Below are positions 1,648 through 14,034 of a DNA stretch of 49,326 nucleotides, one piece after another; positions within the stretch are counted from its first letter, which is position 1, and each line of letters begins with the position of its first letter. The DNA is taken from NCBI GenBank assembly GCA_030695905.1, contig JAUYOL010000042.1, forward strand, positions 1 through 49,326. Reading direction: 5' to 3'. The DNA is from Candidatus Omnitrophota bacterium. Lineage in GTDB: Bacteria > Omnitrophota > Gorgyraeia > 2-01-FULL-45-10. Position numbers and translations under genes: made by a program. Under the pieces are notes generated by a model. The model ran no database searches, was not told the origin of the DNA, and worked only from the letters and a program-made list of their open reading frames with translations.

Positions 1648-2166
1648 TTATGCCTTTTGTTTTTGTATTATGGATAACTCCAACCCCAAAACATCTAAAA
1701 CTTTTTTTAGCGTACTTAAGGATATATTAAGGTATCCGTTTTCCAGAAAAGAGACAAACTGCTGGGACATATCCGCGGATTGCGCGAATTCTTTCTGGCT
1801 CAGCTGTCTTTTCTGCCGGGCGGCCCTTATTATACTACCGATCACCTTCGCCTCTTCGGAAACAGGCTTGCGCTTCTCTTTTAACTCACTCTTGTCAACA
1901 TCCTGCGAAAGAACATCATAGACCTCGTCCCAAAAAATTATCCTTTTATTATTCCAGCTGTCTTTACGCATTTTTCTTTTTATCTTTCTCCAATTTTTGA
2001 GAAAGGTTATCTTATCCATATATATATCAAAAACCTCTCTTGGTTTTCCCGCGCGCGAAAGTACCAAGGACGCAAATTCGGGAAATCTCGGGTCCGAATC
2101 GTTATTTAATATAGCCTGCGCTTCTTTTTTTGTTGTCTTTCTGTCCCAGAAAATATCGGCAGTCAT
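1648..2166 (-). CDS. XRE-family regulator, likely antitoxin partner of the AbiEii-like protein
   Basis: The product is 172 aa. Residues about 108-165 form a Cro/C1-type helix-turn-helix with the typical LSQKEFA...MSQQFVSFLENG layout and a following helix for dimerisation. The first 100 residues are basic and unrecognised, and may contact the toxin. The start lies 1 nt after the stop of the upstream nucleotidyltransferase gene, so the two are co-translated. Gene order (toxin first, regulator second) and the use of an XRE domain differ from classical AbiE, where a winged-helix AbiEi comes first. It probably represses its own promoter through the palindrome at 2901-2949. The HTH call is firm; the antitoxin role rests on context. 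Confidence 0.75.
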   Translation of the reverse strand: MTADIFWDRKTTKKEAQAILNNDSDPRFPEFASLVLSRAGKPREVFDIYMDKITFLKNWRKIKRKMRKDSWNNKRIIFWDEVYDVLSQDVDKSELKEKRKPVSEEAKVIGSIIRAARQKRQLSQKEFAQSADMSQQFVSFLENGYLNISLSTLKKVLDVLGLELSIIQKQKA

Positions 2167-2167
2167 A

Positions 2168-2887
2168 TTATTCGAATTCCTTCCTCACCATCTGTTCTAT
2201 TTCCCGCTTGAAATGATTGTCCATATCCTTGAAGGATATATTTTTATCTGTCACTATATCCAGTACGCCCATCTGCATAGAACTCCTGCTATATGTCCTA
2301 TACCATACCGATAGACTTTCTCTCTGTGGATAAGAACAGTGTTCAAGCGCAAATTTCGATAACGGCATGAAAGTTGTTGAAAGAAAGTACAGATCAAAAA
2401 AATCTCTGGCCTCCTGCCTGCCGCCTTTAAATATTTCTCGCCCTATTACATCAACCGCTTTGTCGCTGCCGCAGGCGGCCAATATTTTTCTTATGTAGAT
2501 ATCCTCTATAGAAAGGACTGGAGTGCCATCTATTATTTTAACCGGCTTAAGAAGATCATATACATCTTCCACAAAATCTATTTTCAAGGTTTCATCTTTG
2601 TTTACATATAAATAATAGATCATCATCTGCACAAACTCTTTTTTTTCCTGAGTCTTAATTAATTCTATCTTCCGGCCGGTCGCTTTTGCCAGATCCGAAA
2701 CAATCGCCTCTATTTTAAGGCGGGAAAATTTTTTGGTGAATATATCCAGATCGTAAGACTCCCTGTGATGAAAATAAAATACAGATAAGGCTGTGCCGCC
2801 GGCTAAATACAGGCCGTCTATTTTGCCCGCTAATGCCTTTAACGCCTTGTTGCGCTCAATAATAACTTTTCCCGTAGTGTCTTCCAT
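2168..2887 (-). CDS. AbiEii/AbiGii-like nucleotidyltransferase (putative toxin)
   Basis: The protein has the minimal nucleotidyltransferase signature: a GGTALS glycine-rich turn followed about 15 residues later by DLDIF, and a later acidic residue in KIDFVED. AbiEii-family enzymes transfer nucleotides to tRNA 3' ends and stop growth when not neutralised. The open frame extends to an ATG at 2905, but that codon abuts and partly underlies a consensus -10 box (TATACT, 2902-2897). I therefore place the start at the next ATG, 2887 (239 aa), about 3 nt after the predicted transcription start. No Shine-Dalgarno sequence precedes it. The gene is followed after 1 nt by the XRE gene. Other solitary nucleotidyltransferases with this fold cannot be excluded. 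Confidence 0.75.
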   Translation of the reverse strand: MEDTTGKVIIERNKALKALAGKIDGLYLAGGTALSVFYFHHRESYDLDIFTKKFSRLKIEAIVSDLAKATGRKIELIKTQEKKEFVQMMIYYLYVNKDETLKIDFVEDVYDLLKPVKIIDGTPVLSIEDIYIRKILAACGSDKAVDVIGREIFKGGRQEARDFFDLYFLSTTFMPLSKFALEHCSYPQRESLSVWYRTYSRSSMQMGVLDIVTDKNISFKDMDNHFKREIEQMVRKEFE

Positions 2888-2896
2888 AACACATAA

Positions 2897-2949
2897 AGTA
2901 TACATGATAAACTAAATATTGTCAAGTATGATATTTATTTTATCATGTA
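2897..2949 (-). promoter_or_regulatory. Promoter and palindromic operator of the toxin-antitoxin-like pair
   Basis: TTGACA (2925-2920), a 17-bp spacer and TATACT (2902-2897) form a near-perfect promoter reading toward the nucleotidyltransferase gene. An exact 11-bp inverted repeat, TACATGATAAA at 2901-2911 and TTTATCATGTA at 2939-2949, brackets the -35 box, with one arm overlapping the -10. This is the arrangement expected for autorepression by a dimeric XRE protein such as the one encoded at 1648-2166. Confidence 0.65.
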
Positions 2950-5788: not shown

Positions 5789-6385
5789 TTATACTTTATA
5801 TCTGTTCAGCTCTAAGCTTGCCTTACTAATCTCATCACCCAGCTTCTCTACGGTATTTTCAAGCGTATGATGATCTACAGACTTTGACTGCGCGAGCCTT
5901 CTTAAAGCATCCACTGATACCGCCGATTTCGCCAGATGTTCCCTCTCCTGCCTTATGGTAGCCTTTATGCTTTCCGCCACGTTATTTATGCCTTCGGCAA
6001 GCGCTACAAGCTCATCATTCTTTCTTAATGTCAGGGGCTCCGAAAGCTCACCGGAAGCCATAGCTTTAAGGAACTTTTCTATTCTGTATATGGGACCCGC
6101 TATCTTGTGGGAGGCGTAAATACCTATTATAAATACAAGCGGCGTTATCAAGAGCAAGCTCAAGAGTATCCTGACATTCACCATATTAACTATCGAAATA
6201 AGACGGCCCTGCGGATAGACATTTGCCAGTTTATCCCCCAATAAAAGCATAGAGGTATAATACACCACGTATGAACATAATATGCCTGTTAGAAATACCA
6301 ATATAAGTATGAGCCCTACATACTTTAACTGAAACTTAGCGGCAACAATATACTGCTTTCTTTTGTATCTGGGCGCCATCGGCAT
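5789..6385 (-). CDS. Two-helix membrane protein with HAMP domain and no output domain
   Basis: The 198-aa product has two membrane helices (about 18-45 and 70-92) separated by a short 25-residue extracytoplasmic loop. A HAMP linker follows (about 92-145, starting SHKIAGPIYRIEKF and ending NNVAESI), then a 50-residue coiled-coil tail. There is no methyl-accepting, kinase, GGDEF or phosphatase domain. It may pass a membrane signal to a separate partner or act as an adaptor. The start codon lies 2 nt downstream of the stop of the PDZ gene, so the two are likely co-expressed. Confidence 0.7.
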   Translation of the reverse strand: MPMAPRYKRKQYIVAAKFQLKYVGLILILVFLTGILCSYVVYYTSMLLLGDKLANVYPQGRLISIVNMVNVRILLSLLLITPLVFIIGIYASHKIAGPIYRIEKFLKAMASGELSEPLTLRKNDELVALAEGINNVAESIKATIRQEREHLAKSAVSVDALRRLAQSKSVDHHTLENTVEKLGDEISKASLELNRYKV

Positions 6386-6387
6386 AA

Positions 6388-7344
6388 CTATCCTCCTTCT
6401 TTACCCCACATAACTATTTCTCTTCTTATAGTTAACCTAATAATACCGTCCTTTGATCTTTTAATAAGCTCTGAAGCTTTTTTGATCGGCATATAGCGCG
6501 TGCTCTGGCCGTTTATATATGTTACCAGATCGTTGGGCCTTAAGCCCGCCCCTTGAGCAAAGGAGCCGTTTTTAACGTCCGATATCGTCAATCCATCGAA
6601 TTGCATTTTAAACTCCGCTCCGATGTCGCCGGCACTTACCTCAACATTGCGCTCTATAGTGCATTTTGTCTCTAAAGACGTCTTTTCAAGAAGGGTTTCC
6701 ACGACTTCCGGAAGCGAAAGATATCCTACCAGCCTGCCCCATATCGCTATAAGGATATCGCCTGTTTCCATTCCTGCTTCATAGGAGGGAGAACCTATGG
6801 CAACACTGCTGATTTTAGTGCCGGATGGATCCGACTTTAATACAATCCCGGCTGTCTTCTTTAATTTTTCAAGACTTTCATTGAACTTCTCTTCTTCGGT
6901 CTTTATACTTATGGGCCCCGTTCCTCTTGCTTCAAACTCATTACGGCGGTTCACATCTTCTTCCTTTTTGGCCATATCTTTCTTAAAGAGATATCCCTGC
7001 AAAAATACTATACCGTCCTTGGCCGCTTTCGAATCGGGGTTTACCTTGAACGCTTTATCGTAATATACAAAGGCTTTTATCAGGTCGCCTCTGTCTCTTG
7101 CCTGCTCCGCCAATTTCACAAGGTTCTGTTCTTCCGTATCAAAATACAACTCTTTAATATCTGGCTTCATCAATGTGCGCTCGCCGTCCACCGTAGACAT
7201 AAGGACTCTGTCCTTATACTCTTCGATTATTATGCCCTTGATCTCTTTATTATCTTTGGTATAGATTGTGTCGGCGACCGCATAAGTTGCAAACTGTAAG
7301 CTGTAAGCTGTAAAAATTATAAACAGAAAAAACATCTTCTTCAT
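6388..7344 (-). CDS. Exported TPR/double-PDZ protein
   Basis: The 318-aa product has an N-terminal signal peptide (MKKMFFLFII... ending near AVADT). A small beta domain follows (YTKDNKEIKGIIIEEYKDR..., about 26-70, like an SH3-type or DUF4384-like strand block). Next come one or two TPR-like helices (about 75-110), a charged linker, and two PDZ domains (about 165-232 and 240-312; second with GLRPNDLVTYINGQ). No protease domain is present, so it is a periplasmic scaffold or substrate-presenting protein. The ATG directly abuts the larC stop, and its GAGGTG ribosome binding site lies in the last larC codons, so translation is coupled. Confidence 0.75.
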   Translation of the reverse strand: MKKMFFLFIIFTAYSLQFATYAVADTIYTKDNKEIKGIIIEEYKDRVLMSTVDGERTLMKPDIKELYFDTEEQNLVKLAEQARDRGDLIKAFVYYDKAFKVNPDSKAAKDGIVFLQGYLFKKDMAKKEEDVNRRNEFEARGTGPISIKTEEEKFNESLEKLKKTAGIVLKSDPSGTKISSVAIGSPSYEAGMETGDILIAIWGRLVGYLSLPEVVETLLEKTSLETKCTIERNVEVSAGDIGAEFKMQFDGLTISDVKNGSFAQGAGLRPNDLVTYINGQSTRYMPIKKASELIKRSKDGIIRLTIRREIVMWGKEGG

Positions 7345-8523
7345 TTACACCTCGACCGCTCTTTTTGCCGCGTCACACACCGTCTTCAGCGGCACTTTTT
7401 TTAATCTTGCCAATTTGGCACAGTCTTCATATTCCGGCGAAACCGTCAGTATGTCATCCGGTCCGCGGCTTAACTTTACCCTTACCCTGCCATATCCTGT
7501 ATCGACTTTTACGATCTCTCTATCGAGCTTATACCTGTTCTGCTCATGATATCTCAATCCTATCGATGAGGTCTCTTTGAATATTATTGAACATAGCTTA
7601 TCGAATATGGAAGGAGCTGATAATACGGTAAGTTTAAACGCGGGACGCGTCTTCTTCATTTGTATTGACGTCGTATAGGCGTCTAAAGCGCCTTCTTTGA
7701 ATAATTTTTCGAATAGATAATTAAAATGCTGCGGGTTCATATCGTCTATATTTGTCTCTATCACAAATATCCTGTCCTTCTTGAACGCCGCGTGCCTTTC
7801 GCCTATCATTATTCTCAACATGTTAGGCAACTCGCTTAATTCCTGGGTTCCCGCGCCGTGGCCTATATGAGACACCTTCATCTGGGGCATCTCGCCGAAA
7901 TTTTTCACAAGCGTCTTTAAGATCCCCGCTCCGGTAGGCGTAACGAGCTCCGCGTCGATATTTGAAATTTTCGCCGGAACGCCTTTGAGCAATTCCAGGC
8001 TCGCCGGCGCGGGCGTCGGCAATACGCCGTGCCTTGTGCTTACAAGAGTCCTGCCGAAATGTACAGGCGATGAATATATCTCTTCGATCTCCATCTTATC
8101 AAGAGCTATCGCGGTGCCGACGATATCCACTATCGAATCTACGTCGCCAAGCTCATGAAGAGAGAGATCTTTTTTATCGGAAATACCATGAATCTTAGCT
8201 TCAACTCCGCCTATATTATTGAAAATATTCTTGGCAACATCTTTTACATTATGACTTAGAGAGCTTTCGTCTATGATCTTAAGTATTTCACCAAGAGGCC
8301 TGTGGGTATGGGCGGACGGACTATCTTTCACCACAACGGTGAATTTTGTCCCGATAAGCCCGCCACGGCGCACCTTGCTCTTTTTGAGTTCATATCCTTT
8401 TATTTTGAGCTTCTTAAGTTCTTTTGCCAGAAATTTTATATCAAGGCCGGCGTCTATCAAGGCGCCAAGCACCATATCGCCCGCTATTCCGCTGAAACAA
8501 TCAAAATAAGCTATCTTTTTCAT
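7345..8523 (-). CDS. larC: LarC, pyridinium-3,5-bisthiocarboxylic acid mononucleotide nickel chelatase
   Basis: The 392-aa protein begins YFDCFSGIAGDMVLGALIDAG, the hallmark of the LarC/DUF111 family, and continues with LHELGDVDSIVDIVG and the TPTGAGIL motif. LarC inserts nickel into the pincer cofactor using CTP. In Lactobacillus the gene is read through a programmed frameshift; here it is one continuous frame and includes the C-terminal domain (RIFVIETNIDDMNPQ...). The neighbour 5 nt upstream is larB. No larA or larE is in the window, so the cofactor user and the sulfur-insertion enzyme must be elsewhere. Confidence 0.92.
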   Translation of the reverse strand: MKKIAYFDCFSGIAGDMVLGALIDAGLDIKFLAKELKKLKIKGYELKKSKVRRGGLIGTKFTVVVKDSPSAHTHRPLGEILKIIDESSLSHNVKDVAKNIFNNIGGVEAKIHGISDKKDLSLHELGDVDSIVDIVGTAIALDKMEIEEIYSSPVHFGRTLVSTRHGVLPTPAPASLELLKGVPAKISNIDAELVTPTGAGILKTLVKNFGEMPQMKVSHIGHGAGTQELSELPNMLRIMIGERHAAFKKDRIFVIETNIDDMNPQHFNYLFEKLFKEGALDAYTTSIQMKKTRPAFKLTVLSAPSIFDKLCSIIFKETSSIGLRYHEQNRYKLDREIVKVDTGYGRVRVKLSRGPDDILTVSPEYEDCAKLARLKKVPLKTVCDAAKRAVEV

Positions 8524-8528
8524 AGAGT

Positions 8529-9269
8529 TTAACTATTTATCATCGACGCCATATATCCGGCGCCAAAACCATTATCTATATTAACCACTGCCACACCCGG
8601 AGAACATGAATTCATCATTGTGAGCAACGGCGCAAGCCCCGAAAACGACGCGCCATAACCAACGCTTGTAGGCACGGCTATGACAGGCCTCGACACAAGG
8701 CCGCTTACGACACTGGCCAGCGCACCTTCCATGCCTGCGATGACGATGATAACATTCGCCTTCTCCAGCGTATCTTTACTATCCAAAAGCCTGTGCACTC
8801 CCGCCACTCCCACATCATACAGCATCTGAACTTTATTGCCCATTACTTCAAGGGTGATCCTGGCTTCCTGCGCAACAGGCAAATCACCTGTGCCGGCCGT
8901 CACCACTAAAACCGTTCCTTTTTTAAAAGAGCTCTTCTCTTTTACAAAATATATTATCTTCGCTTTTTCGTCAAACTTCGCCCCTGGACAGATCTTCTTT
9001 ATCCTGGAGAATACTTTCTTATCCGTACGCGTAATGAGTAATGTCCCGTCGTGCGATATGATATTTCCGGCTATCTTGACTATCTGCTCGGGCGTTTTGC
9101 CCGAACCGAATATCACTTCGGGAAAACCGCGGCGCAGCCGCCTGTGACAGTCTACCTTGGCGAACCCCAGATCCTTGTAAGGCAGATCTTTCAAAACACC
9201 AAGCGCCCTGGCCGACGACATCTCGCCCGACTTAACGCGCTTCAGAAGACTTTTAAGTTTTTGCGACAT
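8529..9269 (-). CDS. larB: LarB, pyridinium-3,5-biscarboxylic acid mononucleotide synthase
   Basis: The product is 246 aa. LarB carboxylates and hydrolyses nicotinic acid adenine dinucleotide, the first step to the nickel-pincer cofactor. The C-terminal half is a PurE/AIR-carboxylase-like Rossmann domain with TAGTGDLPVAQEA, YDVGVAGVHRL and VSRPVIAVPTSVGYGASF. The last carries the Cys-less loop seen in many family members, with the NIDNGFGAGYMA end also typical. The N-terminal half (FAKVDCHRRLRRGFPEVIFGSGKT) is the usual LarB extension. It is adjacent to larC and is probably the first gene of that pair. Confidence 0.92.
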   Translation of the reverse strand: MSQKLKSLLKRVKSGEMSSARALGVLKDLPYKDLGFAKVDCHRRLRRGFPEVIFGSGKTPEQIVKIAGNIISHDGTLLITRTDKKVFSRIKKICPGAKFDEKAKIIYFVKEKSSFKKGTVLVVTAGTGDLPVAQEARITLEVMGNKVQMLYDVGVAGVHRLLDSKDTLEKANVIIVIAGMEGALASVVSGLVSRPVIAVPTSVGYGASFSGLAPLLTMMNSCSPGVAVVNIDNGFGAGYMASMINS

Positions 9270-9275
9270 GGATTT

Positions 9276-9674
9276 TTAAGATCTCAAAATTATCGCGAGA
9301 AGGACCGCGACAACAACGGCCGACAGTATGTAAAAATCGTTGTAGTAGAAAAAGTCCCGCGCCTTTTCCGCTACGGTGTAATCATACTGGCTTATCACAG
9401 GCTCTTTGAGCTTAATGTCGTTTTCGAGATCAGTATATGGATGAGTCGGCTTACCCTTGTCGTCCAGTTTTATCTCGACACGGTTCGGATCCTTCTTTTC
9501 CACATCGCCTATCTCGGATTTTACGGCGTCTATCTGCTCTTTGCGGAACCTCAAGAAGCTGTCGCCTATCTTATAGGCGGGTATTTCGCCCATATCGACA
9601 AGGCGCTTCACCTCTTCCTCGGAGACGCCGAGATAATCCGCGACTTCTTTTATATTCAATAAATGTTCCGGCAT
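9276..9674 (-). CDS. Membrane-anchored protein with N-terminal HTH_17 (excisionase/MerR-like) domain
   Basis: In this 132-aa protein, residues 5-55 form a winged helix-turn-helix of the excisionase/HTH_17 type (LLNIKEVADYLGVSEEEV...YKIGDSFLRFRKEQID). A charged linker follows, and a single hydrophobic helix ends the protein (ILSAVVVAVLLAIILRS, about 115-132). The tail-anchor layout would hold the HTH domain at the cytoplasmic face of the membrane. The start is 4 nt after the bactofilin-HTH stop, and both proteins carry the same kind of HTH, so they probably work together. The domain could bind DNA or serve as a protein-protein adaptor. Confidence 0.7.
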   Translation of the reverse strand: MPEHLLNIKEVADYLGVSEEEVKRLVDMGEIPAYKIGDSFLRFRKEQIDAVKSEIGDVEKKDPNRVEIKLDDKGKPTHPYTDLENDIKLKEPVISQYDYTVAEKARDFFYYNDFYILSAVVVAVLLAIILRS

Positions 9675-9678
9675 ATTT

Positions 9679-10209
9679 TTACTTTATCTTTCCTTGAGCC
9701 ACCCATTCGTCTATCTTTGAGCGCTCAAACTTCCAGGCATTACCATCTTTGGCGCCCGGAAGCCTGCCTGCATTTGCCCACTCATGGACAAGATTCATAT
9801 CTATCTCCAAATATTTGGCCAGGTCCTCGGCATTCATAATATTTTCGAGATAATCTTTCGTCTCGGTGAGCATTTTTGAGTTACCGTCGAATATCGCGCC
9901 CTGGGCTATGCTTAATAGCGGCGTTCTTATGTCCCCTACTACGCACCCCGGCGCGATGAGCTTCAACTCCTTAAGAGCGGTTATGTTACCGTTCACTTTT
10001 CCGGCCACGACTATAGACTCGCCCGTGATGTCGGCATTTACAACGGCCCGTTCGCCGATCATAAGACTGCCCCTGGTATTTAATACGCCTTCGAACCTGC
10101 CATTAATTCGAAGGTTGACAGAATCTTTAAAGATGAGAGTGCCCTGCATGGAAGCGTCTACGTCGAGTACCTTTTCGACTTCGTGCCTCTTGTCCTTTTT
10201 CATCATCAT
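9679..10209 (-). CDS. Bactofilin fused to an HTH_17 domain
   Basis: Residues about 10-115 are a bactofilin beta-helix (repeated GTLIFKDSVNLRINGRFEG..., ESIVVAGKVNGNI, CVVGDIRTPLLSIAQGA), a family that polymerises without nucleotide at the membrane. Residues about 125-177 form a helix-turn-helix of the excisionase type (AEDLAKYLEIDMNLVHEWANAGRLPG...WKFERSKIDEWV). A fusion of a cytoskeletal polymer with a DNA-binding-type fold is uncommon. The open frame extends to 10248, but the ATG at 10209 is preceded by GGAGG at 7 nt, does not overlap mgtC, and is chosen (177 aa). Two further in-frame ATGs follow directly. Confidence 0.8.
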   Translation of the reverse strand: MMMKKDKRHEVEKVLDVDASMQGTLIFKDSVNLRINGRFEGVLNTRGSLMIGERAVVNADITGESIVVAGKVNGNITALKELKLIAPGCVVGDIRTPLLSIAQGAIFDGNSKMLTETKDYLENIMNAEDLAKYLEIDMNLVHEWANAGRLPGAKDGNAWKFERSKIDEWVAQGKIK

Positions 10210-10232
10210 ACAACCACCTCCCTCTCTTTGAC

Positions 10233-10904
10233 TTACTCCGCCTCCCACTTCGCGTGACTGACGCCTTCCAAATGGCTTACATCCCGCATCAGCGCCGCTA
10301 TGTTATGGGATGTGGAGAGTTTCAATCCTATCTTCAGGACCATCAGCGACCCGTCTTCGGACCGCTCCACTTCAAAATCGGTAATTACAGCGCCATATTC
10401 GCCCAATACATCCCTGATCCGTTTTAACTGATCAAAGCCGTCTTTCGACTCTATTACGATCGTCTTGTACCAATCCTTGCGTATCATCGCGTGTTCTAAT
10501 CTTCCGAATAACATAAGCGTGATTACCGCAAGCGCTGTAGTTAATATCGAACCAAAATAAAGCCCCGACCCTACCGCAAGCCCTATGCCGGTAACGACCC
10601 ACAGGCTGGCCGCGGTGGTCAACCCTCTCACCGAAGCTTTGTAACGCATTATTGTGCCGGCTCCCAAAAACCCTATGCCCGTAACTACGCCAGCCGCGAG
10701 TCTTGCGGGGTCTATCGGAGTCCTTCCGGAATACACATCGAATATGTGCACCGATGTAATCATTATCAGGGTCGTGCCAACGCACAAAAGTATATGAGTC
10801 CTAAAACCTGCGGCCCGGCCGTGAAATTCTCTTTCGAAACCTACTATACCGCTTAATATAGCGGCCAAGATAAGACGAAATACTATAGTCCATTCGTTAA
10901 GCAT
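10233..10904 (-). CDS. mgtC: MgtC/SapB-family membrane protein
   Basis: The 223-aa product has four or five membrane helices in the first 140 residues. It carries the family motifs GFEREFHGRAAGFRTHILLCVG, DPARLAAGVVTGIGFLGAGTI and VRGLTTAASLWVVTGIG. A soluble C-terminal ACT-like domain follows (about 145-223). MgtC proteins modulate membrane energetics and magnesium stress in pathogens, but the broad family is poorly defined. The start overlaps the tsaD 3' end by 8 bp. Confidence 0.85.
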   Translation of the reverse strand: MLNEWTIVFRLILAAILSGIVGFEREFHGRAAGFRTHILLCVGTTLIMITSVHIFDVYSGRTPIDPARLAAGVVTGIGFLGAGTIMRYKASVRGLTTAASLWVVTGIGLAVGSGLYFGSILTTALAVITLMLFGRLEHAMIRKDWYKTIVIESKDGFDQLKRIRDVLGEYGAVITDFEVERSEDGSLMVLKIGLKLSTSHNIAALMRDVSHLEGVSHAKWEAE

Positions 10905-11907
10905 TTACTACCTCCAGATTAGGCTGGGCGCTTAAGTAAAGATCGGACCTATGGCCCCTTTTATACAATTCCTCGCCCAACACGCCCACCATAGCCGCAT
11001 TGTCCATACAATACTCCATCTTTGGAAAATATGTCCTGACCCCGCCGGAGAATTTCGACGCATCCAAAAACTTCTCCCTCAATCTCGAATTTGCAGCTAC
11101 TCCACCGCCAACTATTATATTTTTCACCTTACAGAGCCTTGCCGCCAAAAACGCTTTCTCAACCAGCGTATCGAGCGCGTTCTCCTGAAAAGCGTAACAT
11201 ATATCATTTATTTCCGAAGGCCCACTATCCCTATTTCTCACGTAATACAAGACCGCTGTCTTTATGCCGCTGAAACTGAAGTCCAGCGAATCTTTCCCTA
11301 AAAATGTCCTGGGAAATTTAATACTGCCTTTATTTTTCGCCAGCCGCGCCCTTTTTTCTATCGCGGGCCCGCCCGGATAGCCCAGCTTTAATATCTTCGC
11401 GACTTTATCGAACGCCTCACCTGCCGCGTCGTCCTGTGTCTGCCCAAGAAGTTTTTGTTTATAACTTTTATCACAAAGAAACAATGCCGTATGCCCGCCG
11501 GATACCACCAGGCCTGCAAATGGAAAATCGGGGATATCTTCGCCGCTCAAAAACGCGCTGTATAGATGCGCAAGCACGTGATTCACGCCAATAAGCGGAA
11601 CCTTAAGGCTATAGCTTAAGCTTTTTGCTAACGATACGCCTATAAGTAAGGCGCCGACCAACCCCGGCCCATTGGTAACGGCTATCAGTTCCACGTCTTT
11701 TAGCTTCTTACGCGAGTCCTTCAGCGCTTTTTCAAGCACCTCCAGTATAAACTCCACATGGAACCTTGACGCTATCTCCGGCACGACACCTCCATACTTC
11801 TTATGAAGGTGCACGCTGGATGAAACTATATTTGAAAGAACGGTTCTGCCTGAAGTAACCGAAACGCTCGTCTCATCACATGAGCTTTCTATGCCCAGCG
11901 TTAACAT
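10897..11907 (-). CDS. tsaD: TsaD, tRNA N6-threonylcarbamoyladenosine transferase subunit
   Basis: The 336-aa ASKHA-fold protein has the start LGIESSCDETSVSV. The metal site is NHVLAHLYSA (HxxxH), with further family motifs VSGGHTALFL, QDDAAGEAFDKVAK, FSFSGIKTAV and VGGGVAANSRLR, and a final metal ligand in MEYCMDNAAM. It transfers the threonylcarbamoyl group to A37 of ANN-decoding tRNAs together with TsaB and TsaE, which are not in this window. The start codon overlaps the previous stop (TAATG). Confidence 0.95.
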   Translation of the reverse strand: MLTLGIESSCDETSVSVTSGRTVLSNIVSSSVHLHKKYGGVVPEIASRFHVEFILEVLEKALKDSRKKLKDVELIAVTNGPGLVGALLIGVSLAKSLSYSLKVPLIGVNHVLAHLYSAFLSGEDIPDFPFAGLVVSGGHTALFLCDKSYKQKLLGQTQDDAAGEAFDKVAKILKLGYPGGPAIEKRARLAKNKGSIKFPRTFLGKDSLDFSFSGIKTAVLYYVRNRDSGPSEINDICYAFQENALDTLVEKAFLAARLCKVKNIIVGGGVAANSRLREKFLDASKFSGGVRTYFPKMEYCMDNAAMVGVLGEELYKRGHRSDLYLSAQPNLEVVNA

Positions 11908-12749
11908 TATCTTACCATCTCCGACAGGGGCACAAATTCAATGCCTTCAGCGGACAGTTCCGGCATCATCCTGCTTAATACAGCTACTGTGTTTTTTCTG
12001 TCATGACAGACACCTATAGCGCTGCCTTTTCTAAAAGCTAATCTGCGCAGAGAAAGCACTTGCTTCTCTATGTAATCCGGCGATGAATCATTATCAAGAA
12101 ACATGTCACGCTTTGCGTATGGCACACCGGCATTCTTCGCCGCCTCCATACATACGGATTTGTCGGTAACAAGGCTGTCGAAAAAATACAAATTTCTACT
12201 TTTTAAATCAGCTAAGATTACGGACATTGTAGCCTTATCTTCAGTAGCCTTAGAGCCCTGATGATTCGATATTCCTTTTAAACCCGGCACGCTGGCTATA
12301 TCTTCGCCGAGTATCGAAGATATTTTTTTGTTATCCATGTCGGTCCTGATAGTGCCCAGTTCCTTGGGCGCCGACTTGTCATTCGACTCAAGCGGCAGGT
12401 GAAGTATTATTTCGTATTTTTTGGAATGAGCCAGCTGGGCCACGCGGCGCGAATATGGCAGATTCGGCAATATCGACAAAGTTACCGGCTGGCCCGCAGC
12501 GAACAAGTTGTCGGTATTGTTCATATTATAGCCAAAATCATCCATTACTATCGCTATCTTTGGATTTGAGAATTTTTTCTGCACTGCGGGCAACGCTTTT
12601 TTCTTTGCGGGAACTTTTAAAACGGCCCGCTTCTGCACTATTATCCTCTTTTTGGGCACATACGCGGACTTCCAGTATAAAAACATACCGGCCGCTATTA
12701 GAAATATCCCCGCCCCTGCCGCGATAATCAAAATGATCTTCGATTTCAT
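11907..12749 (-). CDS. Divergent polysaccharide deacetylase family protein (YibQ-like)
   Basis: The 280-aa product has an N-terminal membrane anchor (about 4-26) and a basic linker, followed from residue 64 by a divergent polysaccharide deacetylase barrel. Motifs are IAIVMDDFGYN, TLSILPNLPYS, EIILHLPLES, ISNHQGSKAT, YFFDSLVT and a final GVCHDRKNT. The HxxxS/T-type and DD metal ligands are recognisable. It is predicted to be extracytoplasmic and to act on cell-wall or envelope glycans. It shares one base with tsaD and follows ctpA by 4 nt, a pairing with C-terminal proteases that is common in diderms (envC-ctp-yibQ neighbourhoods). Confidence 0.85.
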   Translation of the reverse strand: MKSKIILIIAAGAGIFLIAAGMFLYWKSAYVPKKRIIVQKRAVLKVPAKKKALPAVQKKFSNPKIAIVMDDFGYNMNNTDNLFAAGQPVTLSILPNLPYSRRVAQLAHSKKYEIILHLPLESNDKSAPKELGTIRTDMDNKKISSILGEDIASVPGLKGISNHQGSKATEDKATMSVILADLKSRNLYFFDSLVTDKSVCMEAAKNAGVPYAKRDMFLDNDSSPDYIEKQVLSLRRLAFRKGSAIGVCHDRKNTVAVLSRMMPELSAEGIEFVPLSEMVR

Positions 12750-12753
12750 AATT

Positions 12754-14034
12754 TTAAGATTGCGCCTTGTAAACCTTTATTGCCTTCAAAAGATTCAGCG
12801 CCGACTGCAGTTGATTGTCGCGCTCTATTATCTCTTTAGGCTTTCCTGTCTTCCCAACCTTCTTTACATCCTTGTCTTCTTCTATCTTTTCAAATATATC
12901 CGTAGGAGATTTTTTCTTATCTTTCAACTCTTCCTGTTCTACGACAACATCGGGTGCAACCCCTTCGTTCATTATGCTCTTGCCGCTTGGCGTATAATAG
13001 GACGCTGTCGTAAGCCTCAACGCGGATCCGTCCTTTAACGGTATCACGGTCTGCACCGAGCCCTTGCCGAATGTCTTGGCCCCGAGAAGTATAGCGCGCT
13101 TATTATCTCTCAATGCGCCGGCAACTATCTCGGAAGCGCTGGCGGAACCTTCATTGACAAGAACTATTATAGGATACTGCGGATGCTGGGACTGGCCCTT
13201 TGATTTAAATATCGTGTTCTGCGACTGATTCTTACTCTTAGTAGAAACTATTGTATGGTCCTTCGGAAGAAATTTCTCCGATATCTCTATCGCGGAATCT
13301 AAAAGCCCTCCGGGATTATTTCTCAAGTCCAATATCAGCGCGTCCATACCCTGGCCTTCGAGTTTTTTCAAGTTGTCTTCCAGCTCACGGGCAGCTTTCT
13401 GCTGAAATTCGATAAGCCTTATATAGCCTATTTTGTCCTCCAATAAATACGCGTCTTTGACGCTCGTCACGTTTATCACTGCGCGTTTTATCGGGACATC
13501 CAGGACCTTCTCTTCTTTTTCCCTCCATATCGTCAGTGTAAGCGAGGTCCCCGGCTCTCCGCGCATCATCTTTACCGCGTCGTTCAATGTTATATTCTTC
13601 GTAGTCTTGCCATTTATCCTGACAATCTTATCCTGGGGTTTCAGGCCAGCGCTGTCAGCGGGTGTTCCGGCTATCGGAGTTATTATAGTGATGATGCCGT
13701 CTCTTAGGACTATTTCAACTCCTATGCCTCCAAACTCTCCTTTAGTCTCGACAGATATCTCTTTATATTCATCCGGATCAAGAAACGCGCTGAAGTCATC
13801 CAGCGAAGAGAGCATCCCTTTCAACGAGCCGTATATCATTTTTTTGGAATCTACTTCTGTGACATAGTCACTGCGGATCGCGCTTATCGCGTCGCTAAAC
13901 AGCTCTATCTGGCTATAGAGATCGTCTTTGGACTGCGCTTTGCCTGCCTTCTGGGCATCATAACCTCCCATAACCAGGGAAGTTGTTAAAATAAGCGCCA
14001 GCGCCAATAAAGGGATCTTCAGTCTTTTTAACAT
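12754..14034 (-). CDS. ctpA: C-terminal processing protease (S41 family)
   Basis: The 426-aa product has a signal peptide or anchor at 5-22, a helical cap at about 40-95, a PDZ domain at about 98-180 (GGIGVEIVLRDG, GLKPQDKIVRING) and the S41 catalytic core. By comparison with E. coli Prc spacing (25 residues), the catalytic pair is Ser299 in GSASASEI and Lys324 in TFGKGSVQ. A charged lysine/glutamate-rich tail follows. It acts in the periplasm on protein C termini or on peptidoglycan hydrolases. Its neighbour, the divergent deacetylase, suggests envelope maintenance. Confidence 0.92.
   Translation of the reverse strand: MLKRLKIPLLALALILTTSLVMGGYDAQKAGKAQSKDDLYSQIELFSDAISAIRSDYVTEVDSKKMIYGSLKGMLSSLDDFSAFLDPDEYKEISVETKGEFGGIGVEIVLRDGIITIITPIAGTPADSAGLKPQDKIVRINGKTTKNITLNDAVKMMRGEPGTSLTLTIWREKEEKVLDVPIKRAVINVTSVKDAYLLEDKIGYIRLIEFQQKAARELEDNLKKLEGQGMDALILDLRNNPGGLLDSAIEISEKFLPKDHTIVSTKSKNQSQNTIFKSKGQSQHPQYPIIVLVNEGSASASEIVAGALRDNKRAILLGAKTFGKGSVQTVIPLKDGSALRLTTASYYTPSGKSIMNEGVAPDVVVEQEELKDKKKSPTDIFEKIEEDKDVKKVGKTGKPKEIIERDNQLQSALNLLKAIKVYKAQS

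Follow-up and report, generated by a model that had tools for sequence, protein, structure and literature searches.

A bactofilin and a membrane-helix protein sharing the HTH_17 domain are encoded by a conserved gene pair in Omnitrophota

Our present results describe a pair of adjacent genes that marks the phylum Omnitrophota. The first gene, BacH, codes for a bactofilin with a C-terminal helix-turn-helix (HTH) domain, and the second one, HTM, for a protein with an N-terminal domain of the same kind and a C-terminal membrane helix. The pair was found in the genome of a Candidatus Omnitrophota bacterium, in a stretch of 49,326 nucleotides that was analysed as a whole and is called the window below. 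We consider it fairly probable that BacH and HTM work together as a single functional unit, in which a converted pair of winged HTH (wHTH) domains couples the bactofilin filament to the cytoplasmic membrane. The proposal is based on the architecture of both proteins, their linkage throughout the phylum, the loss of the basic recognition helix and the independent retention of the juxtamembrane motif and membrane helix of HTM.

The two genes and their products

Both genes lie on the reverse strand, with HTM downstream of BacH after a gap of 4 bases. BacH occupies positions 9679..10209 and codes for 176 amino acids, according to its open reading frame, Pfam and AF2. Its start is most likely the first ATG, at 10209, located behind AGGTGG; a GTG at 10248 is merely the first mechanical start and was set aside. 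The N-terminal tail, MMMKKDKRHEVEK (10171..10209), resembles a bactofilin membrane-targeting sequence. It is followed by the bactofilin beta-helix domain (9877..10170; Pfam, Foldseek, alignment) and by the C-terminal wHTH (9691..9837), in which the recognition helix is acidic (D137, E143) and L134 and W144 are invariant. Pfam recognizes the Bactofilin domain (PF04519) at amino acids 14-111 with 80.6 bits (cut-off 27.9) and HTH_17 at 125-173 with 41.0 bits (cut-off 27), and the excisionase-type HTH profile TIGR01764 of NCBIfam matches with 29.1 bits (cut-off 28.8). The AF2 model consists of a beta-helix and a wHTH (mean pLDDT 88.7), and its Foldseek matches include bactofilins 6rib and 2n3d together with BldC (6ama) and Xis (4j2n). 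The column of the polymerisation interface (F130 of C. crescentus BacA, F105 of the Thermus protein) holds F in the window BacH and L, F, I, M or V in 79/79 sequences.

Bactofilin membrane-targeting sequences have the global consensus MFSKKKK (PMC12448750). All 127 BacH tails compared contain at least two K/R at residues 3-9, and 88 of them are also hydrophobic at residues 2-3; as a set they are weaker than this consensus. BacH probably has a membrane-targeting tail of its own, and HTM need not be its anchor.

HTM (9276..9674, reverse strand, 132 amino acids) is composed of an N-terminal HTH_17 domain, a variable linker, a juxtamembrane motif and a C-terminal membrane helix. Its wHTH (9522..9662) likewise has an acidic recognition helix (E19, E21), and it carries an always-aromatic site, here Y34. 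The juxtamembrane motif RDFFYYNDFYI (amino acids 106-116) and the membrane helix are encoded by 9279..9383. HTH_17 was matched at amino acids 5-51 with 44.5 bits against the cut-off of 27, TIGR01764 with 42.5 bits against 28.8, and HTH_25 had no match in Pfam. In the AF2 model, a wHTH is followed by a linker of low confidence and then by a C-terminal helix, 113-131, modelled with confidence (block pLDDT 89-98), beyond which the chain stops within a few residues, leaving no sensor domain past the membrane. Structural matches comprise RacA (5i44), Xis (4j2n) and BldC, the best one being a RacA-DNA complex; the CbpM complex 3ucs is also among them.

The window had been given a preliminary description, which noted the same HTH_17 fold in two adjacent genes, in one attached to a bactofilin and in the other to a C-terminal membrane helix. 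The shared fold is borne out by Pfam, NCBIfam, AF2 and Foldseek, and both architectures by Pfam and AF2; the profile search that had been suggested as a check placed both domains (41.0 bits in BacH, 44.5 in HTM) well above the HTH_17 cut-off.

When the motif (as DFFYFNDFYI) plus membrane helix, hereafter the juxtamembrane-TM module, was used as a query that included members from families f6 and f17, a single match was obtained in each of 136 out of 146 Omnitrophota genomes. No other protein carrying the module turned up.

Spread of the pair and its gene neighbourhood

In the 238 Omnitrophota genomes searched, nearly all at least 90% complete, a bactofilin is present in 207, nearly always in one copy, and a clear HTM is found in all but a few of these 207. 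Among the weak cases, the HTM of G151 is truncated by the end of its contig and that of G055 belongs to a clear pair. In every one of the 112 genomes for which both positions were listed, HTM comes directly after BacH on the same strand. The same order was seen in 79 of 80 named loci; the 80th stops at the contig end. Of the best 80 of 314 relatives in a scan of named genomes, 79 are titled Omnitrophota or Omnitrophica and one "uncultured bacterium". The distant families f48-f56 contain the same pair with the same bactofilin-HTH fusion in 16/16 loci, and both genes are jointly absent in many genomes that lack a bactofilin. The pair therefore withstood the gene-neighbour survey that had been proposed for it, and its conservation is far beyond chance.

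BacH is the only bactofilin of the 1.82-Mb source genome. One relative with BacH has a second bactofilin-like gene (G023:C43:7185-7517) that matches the bactofilin part only, and a few other genomes carry two bactofilins. In the genomes examined from family f39 (G144, G157, G181, G219, G226), neither a bactofilin nor a convincing HTM is present. An apparent natural fusion of both proteins in G225, a frame of 271 amino acids, spans an assembly gap of Ns and was rejected. Three genomes that seemed to have HTM without a bactofilin (G222, G242, G145) were also dismissed, as their HTM is cut at the contig start and no loss is demonstrated.

In the window the pair is part of the order ctpA - polysaccharide deacetylase - tsaD - mgtC - BacH - HTM - larB (8529..14034, reverse strand), which is the context in one part of the phylum and lies outside the BacH-HTM unit proper. 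Could two unrelated housekeeping genes simply be held together by inertia of a tsaD-mgtC-larB operon? The surrounding gene order is indeed conserved in much of the phylum. In distant families, however, the neighbours of the pair are genes judged DnaK-, AccA-, GreA-, AcpS- and ChbG-like by sequence inspection, with none of tsaD, mgtC and larB, and the joint absence of both genes from many bactofilin-less genomes also speaks against inertia. As the pair stays intact in unrelated neighbourhoods, its adjacency is not a matter of operon inertia; this explanation is largely refuted and we give it very little credit.

Several neighbours were recorded in their own right. MgtC was discarded as a general membrane partner, because many genomes have the pair without mgtC nearby. 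The genes larB (8529-9269, reverse strand, directly downstream of HTM) and larC (7345-8523, reverse strand, after larB), involved in synthesis of the nickel-pincer cofactor, come directly after BacH-HTM across much of the phylum and have no obvious functional link to a cytoskeleton. After larC, positions 5789-7344 (reverse strand) code for a HAMP-domain protein of 198 amino acids and a PDZ-domain protein of 318 amino acids; the PDZ gene recurs after BacH-HTM in many relatives, sometimes directly after HTM. Further away, at 1651-2905 (reverse strand), an AbiEii-type nucleotidyltransferase (PF08843) is located directly upstream of an HTH_3 protein, an arrangement resembling a type IV toxin-antitoxin pair. 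ParA and ParB families are absent from the annotated window genes around the pair, between 1.6 and 25.8 kb.

The preliminary description knew of no system with such a pairing, and literature searches agree with it. No work on Omnitrophota bactofilins was found, and titles and abstracts of literature naming both bactofilin and helix-turn-helix do not describe a bactofilin-HTH fusion. The pair is so far undescribed in the literature searched, whereas the theme of a bactofilin with a membrane client is already known.

Recognition helices and the question of DNA binding

One suggestion made for the window was a membrane-tied polymer that binds DNA, and homologues without basic residues in the recognition helix had been named beforehand as evidence against it. 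The 12-residue recognition helix was compared in 79 BacH, 79 HTM and, as controls, 33 stand-alone HTH_17 proteins, all from Omnitrophota. Its mean net charge is -1.72 in BacH and -1.91 in HTM, compared to +2.36 in the controls, and a net charge of at least +1 occurs in 0/79 BacH and 8% of 79 HTM, compared to 94% of the 33 controls. The p values of the charge comparison, about 1e-18 and 1e-16, overstate the independence of the sequences, because these are related. Wings have a mean charge of -0.37 in BacH, +1.57 (partly basic) in HTM and +3.45 in controls. In HTM, the recognition helix has Glu at position 3 in 73 of 79 sequences and Glu/Asp at position 5 in 63 of 79.

BldC contacts DNA by K26, T27, T29, R30 and K33; Arg30 reads bases and its replacement by Ala abolishes DNA binding (PMC5859096). 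The alignment places S/N, a hydrophobic residue, a variable residue, E/D and N/S at these five sites of BacH. The fourth of them, helix position 8, corresponds to the base-reading Arg30 and is Glu/Asp in 72/79 BacH, in contrast to Lys/Arg in 28/33 controls. The basic residues are thus lost in homologues, as had been named in advance, and both recognition helices are acidic where those of the controls are basic. DNA binding by BacH and HTM appears unlikely from these comparisons. With DNA-reading surfaces turned acidic, the HTH pair most likely links the filament to the membrane and not to DNA.

The strongest form of the DNA reading has the bactofilin polymer, HTM or both anchor chromosomal DNA to the membrane, a task for which RacA and the Myxococcus bactofilin-PadC-ParAB system use other means. 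Both folds are of the DNA-binding wHTH type, HTM has a RacA-DNA complex as its best structural match, and individually weak sites, when arrayed along a polymer, could hold DNA through avidity. Moreover, HTM retains the basic wing mentioned above, and R24, K35, R42 and R44 are kept in the window protein, so that HTM may still contact DNA weakly. Against such a tether stand the acidic recognition helices, unlike those of stand-alone HTH_17 proteins of the phylum, the non-basic wing of BacH and the exchange of the residue essential for binding in BldC, and we judge it quite improbable.

ToxR/CadC-like one-component regulators consist of an N-terminal HTH and a membrane helix. HTM matches this layout and might be such a membrane-bound transcription regulator, with BacH as a bystander or scaffold. 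Yet it has no sensor domain outside the membrane, its recognition helix is acidic, and it is strictly co-conserved with a bactofilin that has this domain too, so this assignment is hardly credible. Annotations of proteins like BacH and HTM as "helix-turn-helix, excisionase family" are probably wrong in the functional sense.

A small basic HTH_17 protein containing ..MKPVTIYKHAKAGKLPCFKVGANWRFKKSTIDRWI.. is encoded a few kb downstream of the pair at several loci (L137, 7097-7294; L214, L218, L220, L221 and others). It is plausibly a true DNA-binding paralogue, and it served here as a control.

A predicted coupling of filament and membrane

The head-to-tail oligomer interface of BldC sets F21, V23 and W31 against L11', I40' and T42', with a salt bridge between R22 and E16' (PMC5859096). 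BacH has L134 (79/79), V/I136 and W144 (79/79) at the sites of F21, V23 and W31, and the residues of HTM equivalent to the opposite face are L5, Y34 and I/V36. Position 34, equivalent to I40 of BldC, is aromatic in all 134 HTMs paired with BacH (9 of the 134 were read directly from sequences). The related protein RdfS oligomerises without DNA (PMC11963761). Given these conserved residues at the oligomer sites of BldC and the RdfS precedent, a contact of the BldC type, in which the head of BacH (L134, I136, W144) would bind the wing of HTM (Y34, I36), is the likeliest geometry. At the site of the salt bridge, both partners are acidic (E135 of BacH, E10 of HTM); the bridge is not conserved, and the exact BldC-like interface is therefore not favoured. 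In a tree of 54 HTH columns, the BacH domains form one group and the HTM domains another, and the groups are not joined, which lends no support to an origin of the two HTHs by mutual duplication.

Seven lineages without BacH keep HTM or its remnant (f1-g10, f1-g15, f10, f8, f40, f17 and f6). In f1-g10, f1-g15 and f10, an intact HTM with a normal HTH is located between mgtC and larB, which suggests either another use of the domain or a decay that is still pending. In the remaining ones the domain is altered. Four genera of f8 have HTM directly after tsaD with His at residue 34, and one genome of f40 (G167) has Thr there in place of the F/Y retained by f40 genomes that have BacH. In f17 (G045) the HTH is degenerate and the juxtamembrane-TM module is kept. 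Finally, f6 (G027, G093, G236) has lost the HTH altogether, and what is left is a protein of 64-75 amino acids, made of a short N-terminus and the juxtamembrane-TM module and encoded at new genome places (L291 3137-3331, L292 2764-2958, L293 3537-3764). Position 34 is thus lost in 4 of the 7 BacH-less lineages and in 0 of 134 pairs (Fisher 2e-6, uncorrected for descent). As the HTH often decays without BacH while the module stays, BacH would seem to be at least part of what the HTH of HTM serves, and the module appears to serve something else. By eye, a PlsX-like gene precedes the small f6 protein in two genomes and an Apt-like gene adjoins it in the third; G027 has another, weak bactofilin match.

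HTM and BacH might also not touch each other at all, each HTH docking some third protein (perhaps one client shared by both), so that the genes would be neighbours through a common process. The survival of HTM without BacH in several lineages favours this possibility and implies that HTM has at least one other partner. Covariation was uninformative and is also without a signal for direct contact: in mutual information with average-product correction over 134 BacH-HTM pairs (Neff 74), 19 of the top 50 column pairs were inter-protein, where 48.5% was expected, and the top pairs fall largely in variable tails. On the other side, the matching domain type, the unbroken adjacency and the selective decay of the HTM HTH are more simply explained by contact, and we regard third-protein docking without contact as unlikely, though less so than a DNA tether. 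An adaptor pair of HTH domains had been the other suggestion for the window. It has gained from the strict adjacency, the unrelated neighbourhoods and the decay or loss of the HTM HTH in several BacH-less lineages, the contact itself being a presumed one.

We infer the physical contact between the two HTHs, its geometry, the membrane topology of HTM and a third partner, and the coupling of filament and membrane would work as follows. BacH would polymerise through its beta-helix into filaments that lie at the membrane, which they may touch by the basic N-terminal tail. Since every BacH subunit would display its C-terminal wHTH, the filament should present a regular wHTH array. HTM, presumably a tail-anchored membrane protein with its N-terminus inside, would dock on this array by its own wHTH, and binding with avidity would concentrate the juxtamembrane-TM module. 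The aromatic motif and membrane helix may in turn hold or position a further membrane partner, to which the retention of the module after loss of the filament points. Both domains belong to the DNA-binding wHTHs of the excisionase/BldC type, but an acidic surface has taken the place of the one that reads DNA. A broader scenario, for which we see evenly balanced support, is that two wHTHs of the DNA-binding type, carried by a cytoskeletal polymer and by a membrane protein, became dedicated to protein-protein coupling in the Omnitrophota ancestor. The result would be a phylum-wide filament-membrane connector, whose separate aromatic juxtamembrane-TM module can persist after the cytoskeleton is gone. 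In a large uncultured phylum with little-tested cell biology, BacH is the bactofilin normally present, in single copy, and the pair offers a specific, cheaply testable hypothesis, namely that one DNA-binding fold was put to new use at both faces of the joint between cytoskeleton and membrane.

Bactofilins with membrane partners are known elsewhere. In BacA-PbpC and BacA-LmdC a bitopic membrane protein binds the bactofilin by its cytoplasmic N-terminus, and lmdC and bacA are adjacent (PMC12448750, PMC10945521). Caulobacter BacA-PbpC and Hyphomonas/Rhodospirillum BacA-LmdC resemble BacH-HTM in adjacent partner genes and a single-pass membrane protein, for which binding is predicted in the case of HTM, and HTM may be a client or positioning partner of BacH as PbpC and LmdC are of BacA. 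In those systems, however, a short docking peptide binds the bactofilin core, the bactofilin has short disordered tails and the client a large enzyme domain in the periplasm, whereas BacH and HTM each have a folded wHTH and HTM ends just past its membrane helix. The C-terminal extension of Myxococcus BacP recruits another protein, whose gene lies nearby (PMC5703909). The BacNOP-PadC-ParAB system thus shares with our pair a bactofilin with a C-terminal extension and a partner encoded nearby, but the BacP extension is disordered, PadC is ParB-like and DNA-associated, the system positions chromosomes and no HTH_17 is described on its bactofilins; BacH and HTM, on their part, have acidic recognition helices, and HTM has a membrane helix. 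BldC, RdfS and Xis share with both proteins the fold, the HTH_17/TIGR01764 family and the hydrophobic residues of the oligomer interface, and differ from them by the lack of acidic recognition helices and of fusion to a polymer domain or membrane helix. RodZ, composed of an N-terminal cytoplasmic Xre-type HTH (HTH_25), a membrane helix and a periplasmic domain, binds the actin MreB. It works alike in outline, as a cytoplasmic HTH with a membrane helix joining a cytoskeletal filament to the membrane; HTM, with an excisionase-type HTH_17 and almost nothing past the membrane helix, is not a member of the RodZ family. An HTH engaged in protein-protein contact is also known from CbpM, an adaptor and inhibitor of the J-domain of CbpA with a MerR-like HTH, which is a soluble chaperone regulator with no link to cytoskeleton or membrane.
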